Assembly (NCBI RefSeq): GCF_964019385.1
Contig: NC_088644.1
Coordinates: 38,686,149-38,750,148 of the forward strand
Length of the DNA: 64,000 nucleotides
Source: Sycon ciliatum
Lineage: Eukaryota; Porifera; Calcarea; Leucosolenida; Sycettidae
Direction: 5' to 3'
Shown: piece after piece, positions 1,268 to 62,860 of the stretch
Layout: each line of letters starts with the position of its first letter
Numbering within the stretch: position 1 is the stretch's first letter
The notes under the pieces: generated by a model
Told to the model about the DNA's origin: nothing
Seen by the model: the letters and a program-made list of their open reading frames with translations, nothing else
The model's database searches: none
Position numbers and translations under genes: made by a program

Positions 1268-1774
1268 TTACTTGAAGGTCTTGTCGAAGTGGTATACACC
1301 GAGACCGTCTCCGACGAGCTTCAGTTGAGCACAATAGTCAGACAGCTGCTTGATGGCATCCACTTGCTCCTTGAGGTACTCGCCCTCCAAGAAGTCGCTC
1401 ATCTGGTAGTCGTTGTGTGTGTCGGAGACGGCGTGAAGGTCCAGGAGAGCCTTGTTGACGTATTTCTCCAAAGCCAGGGCTGTTTGGAAGGCATCCAGAG
1501 CAGAGTCGAAGTCGGTCTTGGCCGGTTTGTCAATAGGAGTGAGGACGACACGACCGCCGCGCTTCACTTGATATTCCATCAGCTTCTCAGCGTGCTCCTT
1601 CTCCTCTTGAGCGCTGTCCTTGAAGAAGGAGGCGATGTTCGAGAGAGCAATGTCGTCTCGGCTGAAGTGGTTGGCCATGGCCATGTACGCATACATAGCG
1701 CCTAACTCCTTGTTGATCTGGGCATTGATGCCAGCCTCACAGTTCTCGTGGAACTCCTGACGAGCGAGAGACAT
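1268..1774 (-). CDS. Ferritin, heavy-chain (ferroxidase) type, intronless
   Basis: This is a complete 168-residue single-exon ferritin, the normal length for invertebrate cytosolic subunits. The product assembles into a 24-subunit shell that oxidises Fe(II) and stores it as ferric mineral. By alignment to human H ferritin (offset minus 4), every ferroxidase residue is present: E23, Y30, E57, E58, H61, E103 and Q137. The acidic residues of the three-fold iron channel are D127 and E130. No signal peptide is visible, so a cytosolic protein is expected. The ATG at 1774 is the first in the predicted transcript, and the start MSLARQEFHENCEAGINAQI aligns with family N-termini. A TATA box and initiator lie upstream. 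The 5' leader has no CAGTGN loop, so classical IRE control is not supported. No AATAAA is obvious in the 140 bp downstream. The antisense frame at 1229-1705 is a shadow. Confidence 0.97.
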   Translation of the reverse strand: MSLARQEFHENCEAGINAQINKELGAMYAYMAMANHFSRDDIALSNIASFFKDSAQEEKEHAEKLMEYQVKRGGRVVLTPIDKPAKTDFDSALDAFQTALALEKYVNKALLDLHAVSDTHNDYQMSDFLEGEYLKEQVDAIKQLSDYCAQLKLVGDGLGVYHFDKTFK

Positions 1775-1900
1775 AGTGACTGTTGGTTGAGGTACGGGGT
1801 ATTCGGCTTAGAGGAAATTGAAAAAGCAAGTCCCTACGCAAGACGATCAAGAAGTGTCGACACAGCGAGCAGCAACTTGAAAGCAAGCAAAGTGTAGATA

Positions 1901-3390: not shown

Positions 3391-3475
3391 AATTGTTAGA
3401 TTGACAGCATGAAACAAGGTGGAGGACACTGTGTTCGGAAACAGTGACCTTACTACAACCTTCCGCGGTTGCCAG
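3391..3475 (+). repeat. Dispersed repeat family P, copy 1 (partial)
   Basis: The sequence runs TTGTTAGATTGACAGCATGA then AACAAGGTGGAGGACACTGT and on to ACCTTCCGCGGTTG. Related copies lie at 12649-12738, 14144-14330 (minus), 37066-37130 (minus) and 63350-63515. No coding content was recognised. Confidence 0.75.
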
Positions 3476-3711
3476 TGTTAGGTTACATCATAGTCAGTAC
3501 TAGTAGTAGTACTAGTAGTAGTGCTCAATGCTTGAAGGCCGAGCTGGTAGCGCACAGCCAGTCACGCAGCACATAACCAGGGTATCAGTTTTCTACGTCT
3601 CCGAGTTTTGTGCCAGCAAATACCAGCTACTGAGTACTTACTCACACGGCAACTGATTGGCACAGCTGAAAGGTCCACAGCGCTTGCGATTGCTTTCACC
3701 GTCGCGCAGCC

Positions 3712-5300
<1,589 letters not shown>

Positions 5301-19689: not shown

Positions 19690-19750
19690 GATAAGGGGTG
19701 ATTTCTCAAAAAACACTGTGTATACATGTACATTGAGCAGGGAGTGGTGC
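19690..19750 (+). ncRNA. Degenerate copy of the 21.37-kb hammerhead repeat
   Basis: It matches the family-B repeat (AAGGGGTGATTTCTC, CACTGTGTA, TTGAGCAGGGAGTGGTGC), but the core CTGATGA reads ACGATAA and GAAA reads AAAA. A TACATGTACA insertion splits the downstream stem strand. It is a dead ribozyme copy. Confidence 0.55.
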
Positions 19751-21358: not shown

Positions 21359-21605
21359 GCCTACTCAAGCTCAACTGATGAGGGGTGAATTCCCCGAAAC
21401 ACTGTGTATTGAGCAGGGAGTGGTGCTTTCTTGTAGGTTTGCCGAGTGGAAGGTTCGATGGATTTCTCGTGTGCTATGGATGGCAGTCGTGAGTCAGTCA
21501 AGTGAGAATTCAAGTCGGCAGGAAAAGCGCGTACGCTCCCACGTAGGGAGCAACACACAATTCCCCGAGTATCGCACCAACCTCTTCCTCGCTATCCGAG
21601 TTCAC
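21359..21605 (+). mobile_element. Family-B repeat headed by a hammerhead ribozyme (retrozyme/SINE-like)
   Basis: The repeat begins with the hammerhead at 21369-21414 and continues through TTGAGCAGGGAGTGGTGCTT, GGATGGCAGTCGTGAGTCAG and GAGAATTCAAGTCGGCAGGA to ACACACAATTCCC. Copies lie at 62589-62860 (plus), 62402-62500 (minus, body only) and 19690-19750 (head only). It has no coding capacity. Small non-coding repeats starting at a hammerhead cleavage point are known as retrozymes. Only one ribozyme per copy is seen here, so the assignment is tentative. Confidence 0.65.
21369..21414 (+). ncRNA. Hammerhead ribozyme, complete core (type I topology)
   Basis: Stem I GCTCAA (21369-21374) pairs perfectly with TTGAGC (21409-21414). 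The core is CTGATGA (21375-21381), stem II GGGG/CCCC with loop TGAATT (21382-21395), GAAA (21396-21399), a tiny stem III in ACACTGTGT (21399-21407), and cleavage nucleotide A at 21408 in a GTA triplet. Beyond an internal loop, CTACT (21361-21365) can pair again with AGTGG (21419-21423), the usual site of the activity-raising tertiary contact. All invariant nucleotides are present. Confidence 0.85.
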
Positions 21606-21797: not shown

Positions 21798-24166
21798 ATC
21801 AAATCCAAGCTGACAATAATCAGAGAATAACTCCATGGAAAACTGAAGCGTTTAGACATTGCTATCCGGAACTTATAATGAAATTGACACCGGATACAAT
21901 AAGAATCTACTGCTACAGCAAACTGCTAATATCCGACGTCCAATATGAAATACTCAAAGACATCAAAAGTCAGATTACTCACAACGAGGAGCTGTTGAGT
22001 ATTTTGTCCAGTGGCAATGAGGCGTCCTTTATAAAGTTTATGAAAGTTATAAAAGAAAGGGAGCCCGTTTTCAATTTCGAGGACGTTCTCAAGACAATGG
22101 AGGATATTTTATTACGTGATAAGAAGCTTCTCAATGGTAAGAGCCTATCTCGGTGTGGAATTCATAAAATAACCGTCTCTACTGCAATTTATTTGCACAG
22201 GGAGTATTGTTAAGGGGATTCTGGCTGATTTTCGTAGAATAAAGAGATAGTATCTGCCCAGCGACCCTCCAGCCTTGTTCTGGTCGGTTATCAATCTGCT
22301 GTCAATCTGTGAACAGAACTGCTTCGGCCTTCATGGACTCATCCGTACAGAACAGGAACAACAGTTATCGTTTTAACAATGTATACATTCACATGTACAC
22401 GTGTGTACATTCACAGCGTGTAGGAAGCTCGGATGCATGATGTGGCAACTTCCAAGTGTACATACATGTACATGTATTAATATGTCCCTGTTTTTTTTGT
22501 ATGTGTGACCGTATATGCCGTGTTTCATGTAGGGGTGGCTGTAACCGAAGCTTATAACGATAAGCTCTCCTGGCAACTACGGGAGGTGGAGCGGGCAGCA
22601 GAGCGATGTAAAATCGTCTTCCCCCATGAGCTGTCGGAAAACCAAACAGCTCGGATAAGTACCAATTTGAATGAATGCAAACATAGCATCCAAAAGGCAG
22701 AAAATGCCATAAAAACTTTAAATGATGCTGTGCCTTTCCAGCACAATAACCTTCACGTATTAGAGCTTGACATTGATCAGCAATTAAAAATATTGCATGA
22801 GCATAAAACACAATTGGCGCTCTTAACAGAGAAATATAATTCTTTCTTGATCAAGGCTCCATACGCATCTGCGCTACCATCCTTGGATGGGATGACATCG
22901 AAGCAGAATGAAGGAACCACTGCAGGCCCCAACGATGGCTCAAGGTACAGCTGTGTGGACAGAATTAATATCTATGTGAAGGAATGAAGACAATGAATAT
23001 GCGTCTGCGGTATGCCTTCGCGGCAGCGGTGCAAGGGCAGTGAAAGTGGCGAGTAGCGTTGAGTGATAAGAAGGTATATTTGACGTGCTAAAGTCACACC
23101 AGCTGTACATAAAGGTCATGCGGCTAAACTTTAGAACAAGTGTCAAGTTGAAGACTGGTCAGGTGGAAAAGCCCATTCAAAAAAGACACTGCAAAGCCTT
23201 ACCAGATTCGTTCTAACGTTTTGGCACTTGGCCCGCACTAGGTCACACGTAGTAGGTGCATACATTGTAACCATGGCAATGATGCTATCAGGCCAGGAAA
23301 GAGCTGCTTATGCTATACAATCATGTAGGTTATGCCTAAAATATCTGTAATTTCTCGCCTCAAAGTCAGGCTCCAGTCTAACTTCCAAATGAGTTATACA
23401 AAGACTGACAGCTTATGTTGCCAATACCACCTATTGACGGCAAATCTATGCACTGGAAAATGCATCAGCAAAGGCGTGGATGATAATTATTGCAAATGAA
23501 AACGAGAGGTGTCACTGTATGAGTAGGTGATGGTGCAACGGTTGTGCAATCATAAAATCGGGATTCATGATGTTATCGTTCTGGAATTTGAAATACGGAC
23601 TGTTTGTCGTGATAAACCTAATTATTGACTTAGTGGTCAGTATGAAATAAAAAAACCTCATAAAAGACCTCGGCTTCGCCTCGGTCTTTTACTCGGCTTT
23701 TATTTCCTATATTGATCTCGTTCTCAGTCAATATTTGTAATTATTATTAGGTACTTATTGTTGTGTTTTGTTTGAATTTGTTGTCTTCAGGGAATTACCA
23801 TCTTGGCGGGGCCAGCACAATGCACAGCCGCTCACTCAGCCAGACATTTCTCCCACTATTTATCTAAAATATGCTGCTTTCTTGATTGCCTTTTCGGCCG
23901 TTTTTACCTTTTCTGTGGTGGGAGCTTTCCATGCAGGGGTTATAATAACCGGTTTTTCCTCCAGGTGCACGCCGCCGTCAGGGTGTGGAGGTTTTTCCCG
24001 TCAGCTACCAGGCTGTAAATTATCTGACGGCCCCGAGCCATGGCCACTTTCTGTTGGCTCATATAATGCAACTCATTTCTTCTTCCTTTATGATTTGCAT
24101 CGTGCGTTGCCGCGCTCTGGGAGTGAACTCAATAAGAACATCGCGGTTATTATAAACCCTTACTAG
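21798..24166 (+). CDS. CARD-like, helical and transmembrane protein, three exons (5' end missing)
   Basis: Exons are 21798-22136, 22533-22944 and 23791-24166 (stop TAG). Splice sites are CCCTGCACAG/AT, AATG/GTAAGAG, TTTCATGTAG/GG, CAAG/GTACAG and TTGTCTTCAG/GG. Exon 1 ends at phase 1 and exon 2 at phase 2, and both joins keep the frame open, which is strong support. Exon 1 encodes a helical domain: LTPDTIRIYCYSKLLISDVQ, then EELLSILSSGNEASFIKFM, which fits helices 2-5 of a caspase-recruitment (CARD) fold. Exon 2 is charged and helical, likely coiled coil. Exon 3 has a 25-30-residue hydrophobic segment (YLKYAAFLIAFSAVFTFSVV onward) and a short Cys-containing tail. CARDs recruit partners in death and innate signalling; membrane anchoring here is inference. 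Exon 1 begins mid-codon, so at least one upstream exon is missing. Exon 3 is the least certain. Confidence 0.6.
23516..23742 (+). repeat. Dispersed repeat family D, second copy (in intron 2)
   Basis: Plus-orientation counterpart of 12957-13180. It shares GATGGTGCAACGGTTGTGCA, CGATAAACC-type sequence and the AAAAGACCTCGGCTTCGCCT hairpin. It lies within the second intron of the CARD-like gene. Confidence 0.75.
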
Positions 24167-24968: not shown

Positions 24969-25451
24969 ACTCCCACTCTTGCTGCAAACCAGGTACAATG
25001 TAAAGCTTAGTACTTAAGCCTAGCCTTGTTGTACATGTTGATTTTGGTTGACAGCATGTTACAAATAGCATACATGGACATGTACATGTATGTAAAATAT
25101 TCGACTTGGAGACAACAATTTTAATATTGCAATAAAAAAAACGAGCTGACATTTGGATTACTTTATAAAACAATGTGTAGTGATGGAGATGATGCGAAAA
25201 ACGATCTAAAAGGTAAGGAGAAATACATACATGTATAAGGAGAAAAAGCGATGGAAAAAGATGACTCGAACATGTTTTCGTACAACACTCTTCATGAATT
25301 ACCGTTGTACTAAAGAACAAAATTAATAAGAAAAAAGGAAATAATAACAAGAGTACATAACCCCTGTACTCTTGATAATAATTATAGCAATCAAGTTAAA
25401 GTAGCAAGGTACAGTGAAAGCACTAAAAAAATAATATCAAAGTGTGATACT

Positions 25452-28765: not shown

Positions 28766-28941
28766 CCTAGTGATACTTCTCACAAAGGTGTGTACAAAAC
28801 ACCTCGCTTTTTCTCCTTACATGTATACATCCAATACACGACACCACCACATTGCGCTCTTGGCCGATCCAAACTCTGCACTCACATCACCATCACCACA
28901 GCGAGGACAATTCCGGTATATAGATTGATATTGACAATGAC

Positions 28942-28985
28942 CCTCCAGACAGCTGTTTCGCTCCTCCTGAGCTCATCAGTGGAGG
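28942..28985 (-). ncRNA. Hammerhead ribozyme (left arm)
   Basis: On the minus strand stem I CCTCCA (28985-28980) pairs with TGGAGG (28947-28942). CTGATGA is at 28979-28973, stem II is GCTC/GAGC with loop AGGAG, then GAAA and the self-complementary ACAGCTGT stem III ending in the cleavage triplet GTC. It is base-for-base the same as the right-arm motif. Confidence 0.82.
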
Positions 28986-29178
28986 CATATGATGTTGAAT
29001 GAAAGAATAATAAGAATAAACTGATTTTTATAGGGCTAAATTGGCGCAATTGCGCTCATTCTGCATAGAAACGTGGCATACCCTAAGTTACAAAAGTGAT
29101 AACAAGGTCAGGTGATAACGACACGCGCTCATGGCTGGGACAGTCTATTCTTATTATTCTGTCATTCAACATCATATG

Positions 29179-29222
29179 CCTCCACTGATGAGCTCAGGAG
29201 GAGCGAAACAGCTGTCTGGAGG
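29179..29222 (+). ncRNA. Hammerhead ribozyme (right arm)
   Basis: Stem I CCTCCA (29179-29184) pairs with TGGAGG (29217-29222). CTGATGA is at 29185-29191, stem II GCTC/GAGC at 29192-29204, GAAA at 29205-29208, stem III ACAGCTGT at 29208-29215, and the cleavage C at 29216. The loopless palindromic stem III would favour intermolecular dimers, as reported for minimal hammerheads of Penelope-like elements. Confidence 0.82.
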
Positions 29223-29504
29223 GTCATTGTCAATATCAATCTATATACCGGAATTGTCCTCGCTGTGGTGATGGTGATGTGAGTGCAGAGTTTGGAGCGG
29301 CAAAGTGCGCAATGTGGTGGTGTGGTGTATTGGATTCCATAATGGCCGGGTCGTCGCTACTTCTTCTCAACATATATACAATGTATAAAGTAATCCAAAT
29401 GTCACTTCAGCTCGTTCTCCTTATTGCAATAGACATGTATATCTTCAAGTAACTCCCCTACATCAGTACATAATTATAGTATAACGAGGGTCCGAACCGG
29501 GGCC

Positions 29505-29672
29505 TGGTTGGTTGGTTGGTTGGTTGGTTGCTTGGTTGGTTGGTTGGTTGGTTGGTTGGCTGGTTGGTTGGTTGGTTGGTTGGCTGGTTGGTTGGTTGGT
29601 TGGTTGGTTGGCTGGTTGGTTGGTTGGTTGGTTGGTTGGTTGGTTGGTTGGTTGGTTGGTTGGTTGGTTGGT
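29505..29672. repeat. (TTGG)n tetranucleotide array
   Basis: About 42 units of GGTT with a few C substitutions. Frames of Gly-Trp-Leu-Val or Gln-Pro-Thr-Asn are artefacts. It is followed by ATTTTACTTTGCACATTCAA and similar text related to 63530-63600, and by a run of G at about 29799-29818. Confidence 0.95.
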
Positions 29673-29942
29673 TTTTATTTTACTTTGCACATTCAAACGG
29701 GATGACGACCCAATAGAATGGTGGCGAAGGCTTAGCCTAGAAGTGGCTATGGAAGCCCATAGTAAGAGATTAGGATACTAAATAATTGCGAGTAAACGGG
29801 GGGGGGGGGGGGGGGGGGGAGAGAGAGAATACGATGTATCTGTGATACTACGTGAGGATTACTGAACTGCACGGGGAGGGAGAGAAGAGCGATCAGCAGT
29901 AACTCGAACTACTCCCTACAGACGCATGGTACACATGCATGC

Positions 29943-32096
29943 TTAATTAAACTCAGGTAGCCGGGTAATTGTGCGGACCTCACCAGGGAGAGCGTTCCAC
30001 AGCAGAGCACCAGCAACAGAAAATCTCCGCTGACCGCGGCGGCTACGGTTTGCCTGGATTAGTAGGCCATTTGACTGCTGATGGGGGGTAGGGCCGCCTT
30101 GTGCCGGGGTCAGAAGCTGGGCGAGAACAGGGCTGGTGCGGGCGTGGATGCACCGCCAGATATGGTGATCGATATTTTCTGCCTGTATAGCTCGCTGACA
30201 CGGTACAGGGAGTGAGCAGTGAGCAGCGGCTGCATGGCTGTTCGGGGCGGGTTGCCATTGATACAGCGGATGGCTATGTTTTGCGTGGTTTGCATTCGTT
30301 TCAGTTGACCCTCTCGCATTGCGGCTGAAAAGCAGCAGGAGCCATAAAGCAGGTCGGGCACTATGACCGCCTTCACATACACCTGACGAGAGCGTCTTGA
30401 TAGGCTTCGGCGTGCGCGCCACAGGGCGCCAATTTTCCTGGCAACCTTGGTGACCACATAGTTTACATGGGTGTACCAGTCTAGGCGATTGTCAAGGTGA
30501 ACGCCGAGGTAGCGCGCAGAAGACGCTGAGGGGAGGAGACAGTAGCCGCTTTTGACTATTACTTCCTGTGCGTCATGCTGCTGGAGAGAGATAGTCAGAA
30601 CCTTGCTCTTGGCGGCGTTCAAGATGAGGCCTCGAGACTTCAGCCAATCGGCCAGAGAAGTTGCCGCTGTGGTGAGGGTTCTGGACGCTTCCGCCGCTGA
30701 GGCCTGGGAGTCGTACAGGGTTATGTCATCTGGAAATTTTACATTTGGCACAAGCGAGGAAACCAAAGGGACAGCTCTTGTGTATATACTGAAGAGGACA
30801 AGGCCGAGAACAGAGCCTTGGGGCACTCCGCAGGTGCAAGCCAGCGCAGGGCTGGTTGAGGGCGAGATGAGGATCTGCTGCTTGCGGCCGGATAAGTAGC
30901 CGACGAACCAACTGAGGGCATTTCCGGAAATTCCAACTGCAAGGAGGTCTCGGATCAACTTGTCGTGGTGCACTTCATCACGTCTAATAGCCTTTGTAGG
31001 CAAAGCCCTGTGATCTTGCCACTATCTCTCGCCTTCTGCAGATTATCCGTCAGCACACAGAGGGCGTCTTCCGTAGAACATTTCTTGCGGAAGGCAAATT
31101 GTGTTTCGGGTAATGCCTCGCTCAAGTCCAAATGACGAACTAACTGGTGTTCCACTACCATCTCCAGCAACTTGGACACTATTGGGAGAAGGGATACGGG
31201 TCTATAGTTGGTGGGGATTGATGGGTCACCGGCCTTGTACAGTGGCACGACAGACGCCAATTTAAATGTAGATGGAATGGTTCCAGTCCTCAGCGAGGTG
31301 CAGAACAGCACAGCAAGAGAATAATCATGCCCGCAAGGCAGCACACTGCTGTAGCAGAGAGCCCGGTATGCGGTCACTACCTGTGGCTTTCCGCGCATCT
31401 AACGTCTCAAGGAGACGTCGGACGTCAGCAGGAGTCACATGATCAAGTTCGGTCAAGGAGACAGGTCCAGCGGGACCTGGCGGGGTGCAGAGTTGTTCAG
31501 GACGGTTAGGATCGGTGACAATGGAGTGAAACGTGTCTGCCACCTCACTGATGCTACAACTAGGATCTTGGTGGCGACGCCCAAGACTTCCTAGGGTGGG
31601 CCACATTTTCTTCGCACTGACGGGAGAAGCACTAGTTTCTCTTGCGCAGATACGCGTTCCGAGCAGTGCTACGTGCTTGTTCGAATTCGACATACAGTGT
31701 GCCGTCTGTCCTATCCTTCCTCCATCGGCTGTGCAGCCAACGTTTACGCTGTTCGAGCTGGTGCAGCTCTCTGTCAGACCAGGGAGGTATCGCCCTCCGG
31801 GAAGGCTTAGAGTTGTGCAGCGGGGCATGCTTGTCCAAAACGTACAGGAACTTAGTGTGCCACTCTTTCCACATGCGATTTACATCATTGTGATCCGAGA
31901 AATCACGTAGGCAAGCCTCATGGATATCTTGCCGAAAAGAGTTAACAACGCCCCGTATATTCGTGGGCAGCCGCGACGTCGTGGATGACGCGGGTGGAAC
32001 ATCAACGTCAAGCTGAATATAGGCTTCCACAGCGCTGTGGTCACTAATATCAGTGGGCACAACCGTTGCTAGGGACACTTGCGCCGGGTTGGTCAA
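29943..32096 (-). mobile_element. APE-type LINE family A, decayed endonuclease-RT copy
   Basis: Read on the minus strand, the copy starts in the APE endonuclease (DISDHSAVEAYI contains the conserved SDH). It passes the RT finger region (DARKATGSDRIP, then VVPLYKAGDPSIPTNYRPVS), QFAFRKKCSTEDAL and VPQGSVLGLVLF, and ends at LLWNALPGEVRTITRL. The frame is broken at least four times (near 31.65, 31.35, 30.97 and 30.3 kb). The catalytic FADD is FPDD here, a change expected to kill activity. The 3' tail is missing. Closely related to 9372-10490. Jockey/CR1-like by layout. Confidence 0.85.
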
Positions 32097-32337
32097 TATT
32101 GATCGATTGATTTTATTTGGATTCGTGAGACCAAACGAGCAGGAGTGCTCAATAACAGGGTAGCGAATGGTTGAGTTGTGCTATGTGACAATGTAGTGTG
32201 TGCGTGGGGTGGTGGTGGGAGGGGCTGCGGAGGCCCAATACAATGTAAGGGGATGGGAGAAGAGAAGGCCAGCGGAGAGTCAAACTCAGAAGAGGGAGGA
32301 GAGAATAGCTGAAGTACACGTTTACTGTGCGAATTCA
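32097..32337 (-). mobile_element. SINE-like repeat, 5'-truncated copy
   Basis: It matches the 3' two-thirds of 27858-28219 in reverse (GTAAACGTGTAC, GGGCCTCCGCAGCCCC, CTGCTCGTTTGGTCTC) and ends AATAAAATCAATCGATC directly against the LINE-A endonuclease fragment. The joint may reflect insertion into the LINE or joint mobilisation. Confidence 0.7.
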
Positions 32338-39662: not shown

Positions 39663-42600
39663 CTAGTGAGTGGTTGCCGTGTCATCTGCAGTGGAGTAGC
39701 GTACGGTGGCGCGCCGATGGTTGCAAAACCAGTTGTTCAGCTGCTTGGACGTCATGCCGACTTTCAGCAGGAGGCGCCCGCGGTCTTCCATTGTCGGGTA
39801 GCAACCATGCTCACGAGCCCAATCCTCTAATATGCCGGTGCACGTTTCGCAGCGAAACTTTCTTTTCCCCGTCAACAGCGAATCTTTTGGCTTCCTGGAA
39901 GACGAACAAGATCGAAACCAGAGAAGAGTACATAGAATTAAACTGGCTGCAAGTTGACAATTTACTGGCCCTGCTATTTGTGAAGTATGTGCCAACAACT
40001 GCTGAACACAACACCTCATCAGCACTGTGGAAGTTGTTGCCAAGGGTTTCAAAAGGGAAGTGGAAAAACAACAGTCGACTCTGGCTCGTTAGGGCTAGCC
40101 TAGCTGAGCAAATATGCCGACGTTTTGGTTGCGATATGCTTTTCCAATCCCTTGAAAAGTGGCAATAATAATTTACCAAGAATGTAGCTCTTTATCTATA
40201 ACTCGGAAGTAGCGGCAGACTTGGCCATTTGAAAATAATTTGAACTGGCCAACCCTCCACAATGCGCTCTTGGCCCACATTCACAACACCATACCCCATA
40301 GCAAGGAAGTAATGTTCACTATGGAGTATGGTGTTGTGACTGTGGGCCAAGAGTGCGTTGTCACCGGGAGAGTTGGGCAGTTCAAATTATCTAAAAATCA
40401 GCAAAAAAATTGCATCTATATTTTGAAAATTCACACTTCAAAAATAAAAAATAAACACTAATGAAAACTGCTTCACCCCCCCCCCCCCTTAATGGCCAGG
40501 GCGTGCAACGTTTTAGCACAATTTCGGACAGAGAATGCTGAGACATTCAACGACCTGATACTGAGCCCATCCACAGCTCATCGGGGCTAATGGGTCACGG
40601 TCCTTTCAACATGGAATGTTCGTGGTCAGGGGTGATAATCCACCGATAGGCCATCGAGATAGACACAAGCTACATCCCGCGGCTCCACAGAATGCACAGC
40701 TGATCGGCTGATGGTGGCTGTGATTAGGCAAGACTATTGAATAGTACACAGAGCTGCAACAGTCACGTGATATCCCAATGATATTTAAATAATTTTGATA
40801 GATTTCAAAGCCTCCAATATCACGTGACTGTTGCAGCTCTGTGTAGTATTCAATAGTCTTGCCTAATCGATGTTCAACTGTATCAAGAATCATAATTCCA
40901 AAAAGCGCAGAGAAAATCCTTTAGGATTCCGACTCAGGGTGGTATTGGTTGTAAATGGATTCCTGAAATTCTCGTCTTGGGCTACAAGTTTCCAGCAACA
41001 ACAATGTAAAGCAGCAACGACCATCCTTGAGTCTCAACTTTGCCAGGGATTTCTTATCCCAATACTATTAAATAATTTTGATAGATTTCAAAGCCTCCAA
41101 TAAGAAATCCCTGGCAAAGTTTAGACTCAGATCAAGGATGGTCGTTGCTGCTTTACATTGTTTTTGCTGGAAACTTGTAGCCCAAGACCAGAATTTCAGG
41201 AATCCATTTACAACCAATACCACCCTGAGTCGGAATCCTAAAGGATTTTCTCTGCGCTTATTGGAATTATGATTCTTGATACAGTTGAACATCGACGCTG
41301 CACATTTTCGTAGTTTGCACGCTCCAAGTGCACATACGCCATGACCCGATCTCACCAAACTTCCCACGAAAGTTCATTTCGTGTTCCCTGCAAGTTTCGC
41401 GTCCAAAGCTGCGAAAGTTCGTGCGAAGTTTCTCACTTTGTGACGTAACAGCGAAAGTTCGTGCACACTTTTTCGTTTTGCAGAACCTCTGTAATGTCAC
41501 ATTGGGTATTGTTTCCAGCAATAGCGCACTATTACCTCACTGGACTCGGATGGAGAGCCAAGGATAAATTTATAGTAAAGAACGCTATATTGTCCACTAA
41601 CAGCACCAGTTACTAAACAATAACTTGTAGATTCTTGGTCCTTTTTTCTTTATTTAATACCTCACCAGTATTACCTTACCAGGCAGGCACAGTGGGTTGG
41701 TCAAAGACCATGATTGAGATACAAGAGGTACCTGGTTCAAGTCCTGCCTGGGAGCGGTTTTTCCAGCCGTGCTGCTACCCACAGTCAACTGGGAACTTGT
41801 GGCCAGGCACAAGGGGTACATGGATGCAGCTAATGGGGTCGTTTTCGGCACTTGTGCCAGTGGTTGTGAGACTTACCCACTCACCCCCACCGTTAGGCGC
41901 TGCACCTGCCGCTAGGGTTTATTGGGTGTTAGCGGCCGTCGTGAGTTCCCTTCGGTAACGGATACGATAATTTACTTTTTTTTTTTTTTTTTTTTAGTAT
42001 TACCTTATTATTTTTGATTGCTAACTACCGGAATCCAGCTCCCCTGATGTACCAGCCATTATCTATCAGTATCATATTATTATTATCTAGTATTATTGCC
42101 TCAACTGTTCTTGTCGTTGACGGAACCATAACTGATGTTAGAACTTGGCCATTTCCTTCCGCCCTGCCGGACTCTTGTAGTTCTTTTAAACTCTTCTACT
42201 TCTGTTTTCTCATCTCCTCTTCATTCGCTTCTCTGCAGTGGTATCACTGTCATTAGGCCATTTCCCTGTTCTGGCTGCCACTCTAAATGAATACAAATAC
42301 ATACAATACAAATATTACTTCACACTAGAACTTACAGTCTGGTGGGACGAGTTCTAACGTGGAACGGGCAGATTTGAAATGTTTCCCAGAAGGAGCCCGA
42401 CTTTGACGGAGGACCGGCGACATGCGACCTATCTCCGACGTGCAAATGAAGGTACTGCGATGGCTGCTGGTGGGGCGTCTGCGCATGCCGGACACCTGTT
42501 TCCCAGCGATTCACACCGGGATATGGCGGCCAGTGCTGTGTGGCTTGCTGCCCCATGTATTGCTGCTGCTGTTGCTGCTGTGATGGAGTAGGTATTGGAC

Positions 42601-62246: not shown

Positions 62247-62401
62247 TAGAGCATCGCGGGTCTGAAGTGGAGGTGCCTGGGTCGAGTCTTGCACTTTGCA
62301 GATAGCAGCCAGTCTCTTATTCAGATGTGTCCTATACTCTATAGCCATTGTGTTTGCTCACTACGTGGGAGCTCGCCTTCAAGTTTTACGCTGAATCTAA
62401 T

Positions 62402-62860
62402 TTTCACTTGACTAACTCACGACTGCCATCCAGAGGACATGAGAAGTCCGTTGAGCCTTCCACTCCGCAAACCTGCAAGAAAGCAGCCTTTGGGTATCCC
62501 TACAGTGTTGGTGGTGTTTAGGCTCGGAGACAGAGAGCTGCACTTGACTACAGTCACACTCGGAGCACAAAATAGCATTAGGTAACCTACTCAAGCTCAT
62601 GACTGATGAGGGGTAATTCCCTGAAACACTATGACATTAATTTGAGCAGGGAGTGGTGCTTTCTTGCAGGTTTGACGAGTGGAAGGTTCGACGAACTAAC
62701 TTCTCGTGTACTCTGGATGGCAGTCATGAATCGGCCAAATGAGAATTCAAGTCGGCAGGAAGAGCGCGAGCTCTCATGTAGGGACCCCGAGCAACACACA
62801 ATTCCCAAAAGTATCGCCGAATTCGCTACAGCCTCTTCTTCGAGAAACATGTATGTGTAC
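62402..62860. mobile_element. Two inverted family-B copies, one with a degenerate hammerhead
   Basis: The minus piece at 62402-62500 has only the body (CGACTGCCATCCAGAG, CCTGCAAGAAAGCA). The plus copy at 62589-62860 has the head: CTGATGA (62603-62609), GGGG/CCCT stem II, GAAA (62623-62626), and TTTGAGCAGGGAGTGG downstream. In the head, stem III is destroyed by an insertion, and TG is inserted before the core. Probably inactive. Confidence 0.6.

Follow-up and report, generated by a model that had tools for sequence, protein, structure and literature searches.

Inverted hammerhead ribozymes in the sponge Sycon ciliatum as the probable product of two-ended integration by a Penelope-like retroelement family

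How Penelope-like elements (PLEs) integrate is unsettled. In the 2013 paper on the Penelope families of the rotifer Adineta vaga (PMC3846280), the parts drawn on here give as the typical structure adjacent inverted pLTRs, a target duplication of 9-10 bp and a 31-bp tail that one of the two inverted pLTRs may carry; self-priming is discussed and favored there for such inverted structures, with other routes left possible. In vitro work from 2024 on PAc, a PLE protein of the lizard Anolis (PMC11167929), showed, in the sections cited here, that the enzyme cuts and extends both target strands, and that reverse transcription starts inside the RNA at two adjacent sites, the stretch between them being the tail. 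In those experiments, the two strands showed no difference in start site, and the ribozyme was dispensable for insertion. A further point of reference is the metazoan non-LTR retrozymes, which, according to the portion of the paper used here (PMC7229834), are non-autonomous, abundant, short repeats with a type I hammerhead, arranged as direct tandem repeats of ~170-400 nt; the same source reports that an axolotl hammerhead with a palindromic stem III works better as a dimer. The statement in a preliminary description of the present locus that Penelope terminal repeats carry hammerheads as direct repeats therefore does not hold as the sole form, given that the rotifer paper counts inverted pLTRs, one of them tailed, and a target duplication as part of the typical structure.

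The locus studied here lies in a 64,000-nt stretch of the Sycon ciliatum genome (hereafter, the window; positions 38686149-38750148 of contig C2), and the genome searched comprises 538 Mb in 313 contigs. The inverted repeat has arms of 195 nt each (28829-29023 and 29141-29335) that are complementary at 189 of 195 positions and have 117 nt between them, in agreement with the arm positions and length first described. The 507-bp extent originally given captures the arms and misses the whole feature, which reads as a single insertion of 541 nt (28829-29369), tail included, plus its target duplication. Specifically, a tailless left unit (28829-29143, minus strand, U37-360 of the unit query by BLAST), with its ribozyme sense on the minus strand, meets a right unit (29141-29369, plus strand, U5-231 by BLAST, with the end read by eye) that consists of arm plus tail and has its ribozyme sense on the plus strand. 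The 117-nt “spacer” (29024-29140, minus strand) is the left unit continuing upstream of its ribozyme, as the same sequence follows the arm contiguously in other copies, and the trinucleotide CAG at 29141-29143, where the two unit matches overlap, is common to both units at the head-to-head join. The left arm has no tail, and the right arm runs on into a 34-nt tail, TCCATAATGGCCGGGTCGTCGCTACTTCTTCTCA (29336-29369, plus strand), that other copies also show where they are tailed. A 10-bp target duplication, ACATGTATAC at 28819-28828 and ACATATATAC at 29370-29379 (9/10 identical; flank-test score 9), encloses the insertion. In the ribozyme-sense direction, a unit reads from an upstream region through the arm with its hammerhead to an end or a tail: tailless units end near GTATTGGAT(TCCATAAT), and tailed units run on into TCCATAATGGCCGGGTCGTCGCTACTTCTTC(TTC)TC, while the truncation point at the upstream end varies from copy to copy. 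Relative to the majority of copies, the window arms carry two (left) and four (right) private changes. About 130 bp from the insertion lies a decayed non-LTR retroelement (29506-32180, minus strand) with RVT_1 in the frame 30110-31021, beside which an AACC repeat may be its 3' tail. A candidate empty site within the window (25104-25251) resembles both flanks and was set aside as too diverged to place the duplication.

Each arm carries one hammerhead motif of identical sequence, at 29179-29222 on the plus strand (predicted cleavage after C29216) and at 28985-28942 on the minus strand. Its parts are stem I CCUCCA/UGGAGG (6 bp), CUGAUGA, stem II GCUC-AGGAG-GAGC (4 bp), GAAA, stem III ACAGCUGU and the triplet GUC; both copies are of type I with an intact core, so the initial observation of an inverted repeat with a complete hammerhead on each strand stands. 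Since they lie on opposite strands, a transcript from either strand holds one sense and one antisense copy, as had been anticipated. Stem III is the palindrome that had been described, as in the axolotl retrozyme motif (PMC7229834), but it is not loopless: within one molecule, it would consist of 2 bp closing an AGCU loop, or of 3 bp closing a loop of 2 nt. A three-stem descriptor found three sites in the window (the two arms and +21375), whereas 100 first-order Markov randomizations gave 0.01 on average and never more than 1. At gathering level, no Rfam family was reached in the window; a permissive search returned Hammerhead_HH9 at 21.4 bits, short of its gathering score of 52, with E-values of 0.013 over 801 bases and 1 over 64 kb, and Rfam thus weakly supports the assignment. 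The short motif did not surpass its shuffles in folding energy (z 0.02 and -1.25), and this measure, for the motif as for one arm taken alone, was dropped as evidence for a hammerhead; the case therefore rests on the core motif with its stems and on its repetition. This putative ribozyme resembles the minimal hammerheads of PLEs and Terminons named in the retrozyme paper (PMC7229834) in its type, short stems and very short stem III, but falls below the Rfam cut-off. Two pattern scans of viral contigs, a set from which records close to this genome may be missing, gave no matches.

The ribozyme overlaps a relic ORF start on the plus strand, which by translation runs from an ATG at 29176 through 31 codons (MPPLMSSGG...) to a stop (29176-29271). 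A second ATG lies within CUGAUGA at 29188, and the predicted cut falls 28 nt after it, compared with 26 bp after the start codon for the lizard PLE ribozyme (PMC11167929). The conserved core with its three stems recurs beyond the window, its 13 core positions being kept in 34 of the 45 units that cover the ribozyme. Those 45 units, which include one distant relative, have diverged by 2.03% within the ribozyme, by 2.12% outside it and by 2.22% at the 13 core positions; because the ribozyme diverges about as much as the rest of the arm, these sequences give no sign of selection on it after insertion. Only L040 (U154) and L036 (U159) end close to the predicted cleavage site (U156), and truncation at the ribozyme is not claimed.

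The window holds other repeats. A second hammerhead family has cores at +62603 (62334-62814) and +21375 (21360-21575) and a decayed copy at +19690 (19690-19750); in 62334-62814, the left arm is an inverted copy that lacks the ribozyme and stops at ACACAAT, and the right arm extends into ~40 nt common to the 21375 copy, giving this second family a tail/no-tail look as well. A third family has two plus-strand cores, 14428 and 52859, whose stem III contains a G-G mismatch; its decayed minus-strand copy at 22355 has a C-G pair in that place. Two abutting hairpins (40722-40868 and 40867-41295) have near-identical loops (49 columns, 94%) and unrelated arms of ~52 and ~190 nt. A ferritin gene is encoded at 1268-1807 (minus strand), with Corticium candelabrum as its closest named relative by identity (63%) and an ENA protein at 74%.

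Searches with the arm (best 40 of 1,120 first-look candidates scored) and with another copy (best 40 of 440 scored) returned 47 matches each, those to the arm at 90-100% identity, and among the candidates so scored, the family is abundant and its copies dispersed. We read the window and 54 further loci (L009-L045 and L054-L070, seven of them extended by L071-L077), which are the best matches to two queries rather than a random sample. Merging paralogs by shared flanks (L010/L038/L042; L036/L037; L033/L044; L063/L066/L067) reduced the 55 places to 49 independent insertions. Six further places of a group on contig C7 were left out; there, copies of one insertion recur at 7358428, 7364168 and 7369908, a spacing of 5,740 bp that points to a larger tandem repeat carrying the element along. 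The arrangement thus recurs at independent places with different flanks, and the two circumstances that the preliminary description said would undermine it, an assembly artefact or a sole copy, do not apply. To its question of whether copies of the arm are single, direct or inverted, the answer is that inverted pairs and single units prevail, and direct joins occur only in L014, L018, L027 and L030. In this respect, the family departs from the direct tandem repeats of retrozymes (PMC7229834), with which it shares a non-autonomous, abundant, short repeat and a type I hammerhead: here, the unit is ~806 nt and occurs as inverted pairs and truncated single units. L014 runs on into the seeming tail of a neighboring unit, and in L027 and L030, a unit end lies beside a unit start, so that the source RNA was probably a tandem of units of ~806 nt.

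Across these copies, unit ends cluster at U1-8 and at ~U28-49, 30-40 nt apart, as genomic end points rather than enzyme start sites. Both convergent units begin at these two recurrent sites in 18 insertions, and 17 of the 18 pair one tailed with one tailless unit (the window, L010-L013, L017, L019, L021, L023, L024, L026, L028, L036, L043, L057, L060 with L073, and L063 with L071). The exception, L030, looks tail/tail, and its left end sits in a tandem; none of the 18 is tailless at both ends. Were the ends independent, the probability of at least 17 mixed pairs among 18 would be 4.6e-5 at the single-copy rate and 7.2e-5 at equal rates. Some tailed pieces are short, ~30-45 nt in L017, L021 and L024 (~32 nt in the latter two) and 7-8 nt in L010; those of L017 and L010 were recognized by eye, and the count without L010 is 16 of 17. 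The longer unit of a pair is tailed in some insertions and tailless in others. In 6 of the 49 insertions (L014, L031, L040, L062, L069, and L070 with L074), a second inverted piece starts at neither site. Those of L031, L040, and L070 with L074 begin at U197, U127 and U126, respectively, which hints that there is a minor third start point close to U126. Single-unit copies comprise 10 tailed and 14 tailless; L027 is tailed and in tandem. A copy was called single where neither BLAST nor the 60-110 nt of flank inspected revealed a second piece, so that very short pieces may be missed. The recurrence of the tail/no-tail architecture elsewhere removes the possibility that ribozyme and inverted repeat coincided by chance in a window rich in inverted repeats.

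The flanks and joins bear on whether each pair is one event. In the 14 mixed insertions then known (L057, L060 and L063 are outside this test), an insertion's own left and right flanks scored at least 7 in 11 of 14 cases and averaged 10.6. Mismatched flanks reached 7 in 11 of 182 pairs, with an average of 4.8 and a top score of 8. The automatic test detected no duplication in L010, L023 and L036 (score 4 each), the score of 20 for L011 lies inside a GTT repeat and proves nothing, and L010 and L017 had their outer boundaries placed manually. Of the 11 central joins listed, 10 show an overlap or gap of 0-5 nt and the last, L021, an overlap of 12 nt, and the two units of a pair stop at different points, up to ~500 nt apart (L026). 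Given the enclosing duplication and these close joins, each pair is best read as one insertion event. Further, among 12 pairs compared (L036 and L037 being paralogs), L019 has two private changes in stem III common to both units and L030 has one, so both units of a pair can come from one RNA source.

With units, tailed and tailless ends, target duplications and joins observed as above, we consider it likely that the window feature represents a single insertion of a non-autonomous Penelope-like retroelement family and, jointly and at the same level of confidence, that it arose through two-strand priming from two internal RNA sites by a PLE enzyme. Like the PLEs of Adineta vaga (PMC3846280) and Anolis (PMC11167929), in the features that the cited sections describe, the family has inverted pLTR-like units of which one bears a 30-40 nt tail, head-to-head joins at which the truncation varies, a short target duplication, a hammerhead beside a start codon and two adjacent reverse-transcription start sites, seen here as genomic end points. 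Four marks of a PLE (a tail on one inverted unit, two adjacent end points, a short duplication and a hammerhead by an ORF start) are present. It differs from those GIY-YIG elements in that the copies read here carry no reverse transcriptase/endonuclease ORF, that the unequal tailing has been put in numbers (17 of 18) and that no palindrome is needed at the joins. We infer the PLE enzyme as the agent, the priming of both strands and the order of steps. First, the enzyme, supplied in trans, would make a staggered double-strand cut, giving rise to the 10-bp duplication. Second, both target 3' ends would prime reverse transcription from inside the element RNA, priming at the distal site yielding a tailed unit and priming at the other site, ~30-36 nt upstream, a tailless one. 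Finally, two convergent, incomplete cDNAs would be joined head to head through microhomology, which would make the inverted hammerheads a by-product of integration.

Coding PLEs are present in the genome. A GIY-YIG search (best 150 of 944 candidates scored) gave 13 matches, among them L052, an 802-aa frame flanked by inverted repeats of ~390 bp (96%), and L053, the same PLE frame as a head-to-head inverted pair (849-2594 and 3455-5201, 98.9%), which shows the same inverted layout as the present family. Pfam GIY-YIG scored 24.5 and 25.5 bits in L052 and L053, respectively (cut-off 22.6); RVT_1 scored 27.0 bits in L053, under its cut-off of 29.6, and was not reported in L052. The reverse transcriptase motif YIDD was recognized by eye, and Rfam found no hammerhead on L052. 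It counts against our preferred reading that neither L052 nor L053 shows a convincing sequence match to the present unit, and that no ORF-bearing copy of the family was found among the copies read or via the GIY-YIG search (best 150 of 944 candidates). The tail/tail look of L030, the six insertions with a second piece at neither site, the three with no detected duplication and the position of L011 in a simple repeat also weigh against it, as does the lack of a strand difference in start site in the lizard enzyme, as reported in the sections cited (PMC11167929).

The genomic ends match the two-site picture of the lizard PLE, and the pairing of one end of each kind is an addition to it; as that enzyme showed no strand difference in start site, such a rule is not predicted by the in vitro result. 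The rule may be stated as the two target strands priming at different RNA start sites, tail and inner, as though the two ends were being extended together by an asymmetric complex of two subunits and two templates, and we give it an even chance. If it is true, single-unit copies would be events in which one cDNA was very short (as are the ~32-nt pieces of L021 and L024 and the 7-8-nt piece of L010), and the rule would take over from self-priming in explaining inverted Penelope repeats.

Among the alternatives, the one that we rate highest, though still improbable, is that the inverted copy serves as a source of double-stranded and small RNA directed against the family, which could be a side effect compatible with two-strand priming. 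A transcript is predicted to fold into a 195-bp hairpin (-389 kcal/mol), and rotifer Penelope copies yield small RNAs, mostly antisense, according to the cited part of that paper (PMC3846280), but such a role would leave the origin of the structure unexplained. In equilibrium folding, as opposed to kinetics, the predicted probability of stem I is at most 3.1e-47 for all 14 prefixes folded from the full-repeat transcript; in the arm alone, it reaches up to 0.96 once the motif is complete and is 0.09-0.96 thereafter. If the repeat is transcribed, the ribozyme is therefore likely to be buried, as had been proposed; burial would follow from the insertion itself and so provides no evidence of regulation.

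Snap-back self-priming, in which one cDNA folds back and copies itself into a head-to-head repeat (on an antisense template in the version of PMC3846280), is in print for inverted Penelope structures in the part of the rotifer paper drawn on here, the shared private changes of L019 (two) and L030 (one) are as copying would give, and the joins have short overlaps. It should, however, copy the outer end too, and the mixed ends of 17 of 18 pairs argue against it, as does the longer unit being now tailed, now tailless; two-strand priming fits these sequences better, and we leave self-priming a small chance. A terminal-inverted-repeat DNA transposon (MITE or foldback) that gained a hammerhead is very unlikely. 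Inverted arms with target duplications would suit it, and the window has other hairpin repeats, one of which (40227-40398) has an arm similar to the outer portion of the hammerhead arm (score 21, whereas shuffles average 9.2 and 0 of 1,000 reached it; its motif has 4 sites against 0.26 expected). Such a transposon would have equivalent ends, yet 17 of 18 pairs are unequal, one end tailed and the other not; inner ends also vary from copy to copy, and many copies are single units. The abundance of the family would allow two independent insertions of the same element in opposite directions at one spot, a reading that we think scarcely credible, as most of the pairs tested have both units inside a single duplication, and 10 of the 11 joins listed leave 0-5 nt of overlap or gap between them. 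Weakest is the regulatory switch of the preliminary description, in which the inverted dimer is retained since hairpin formation controls self-cleavage: the predicted burial would suit it, but the ribozyme shows no sign of constraint among copies (2.03% versus 2.12%), arm lengths and joins vary freely, the join differing each time, and many copies have one unit alone, so that we give it next to no credence.

The family is new, the Penelope-like kind and its architecture were already known, and the count of mixed ends and its consistency are new. The 2013 rotifer paper favored self-priming (PMC3846280) and the 2024 in vitro study showed extension of both strands (PMC11167929), in the sections cited; a short, abundant family in which both products of insertion can be read supplies many natural records for testing such models of integration. 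In the account proposed here, the mirror-image ribozymes would be explained by integration, not design, and their value would lie in a clean record of two-ended target-primed reverse transcription.
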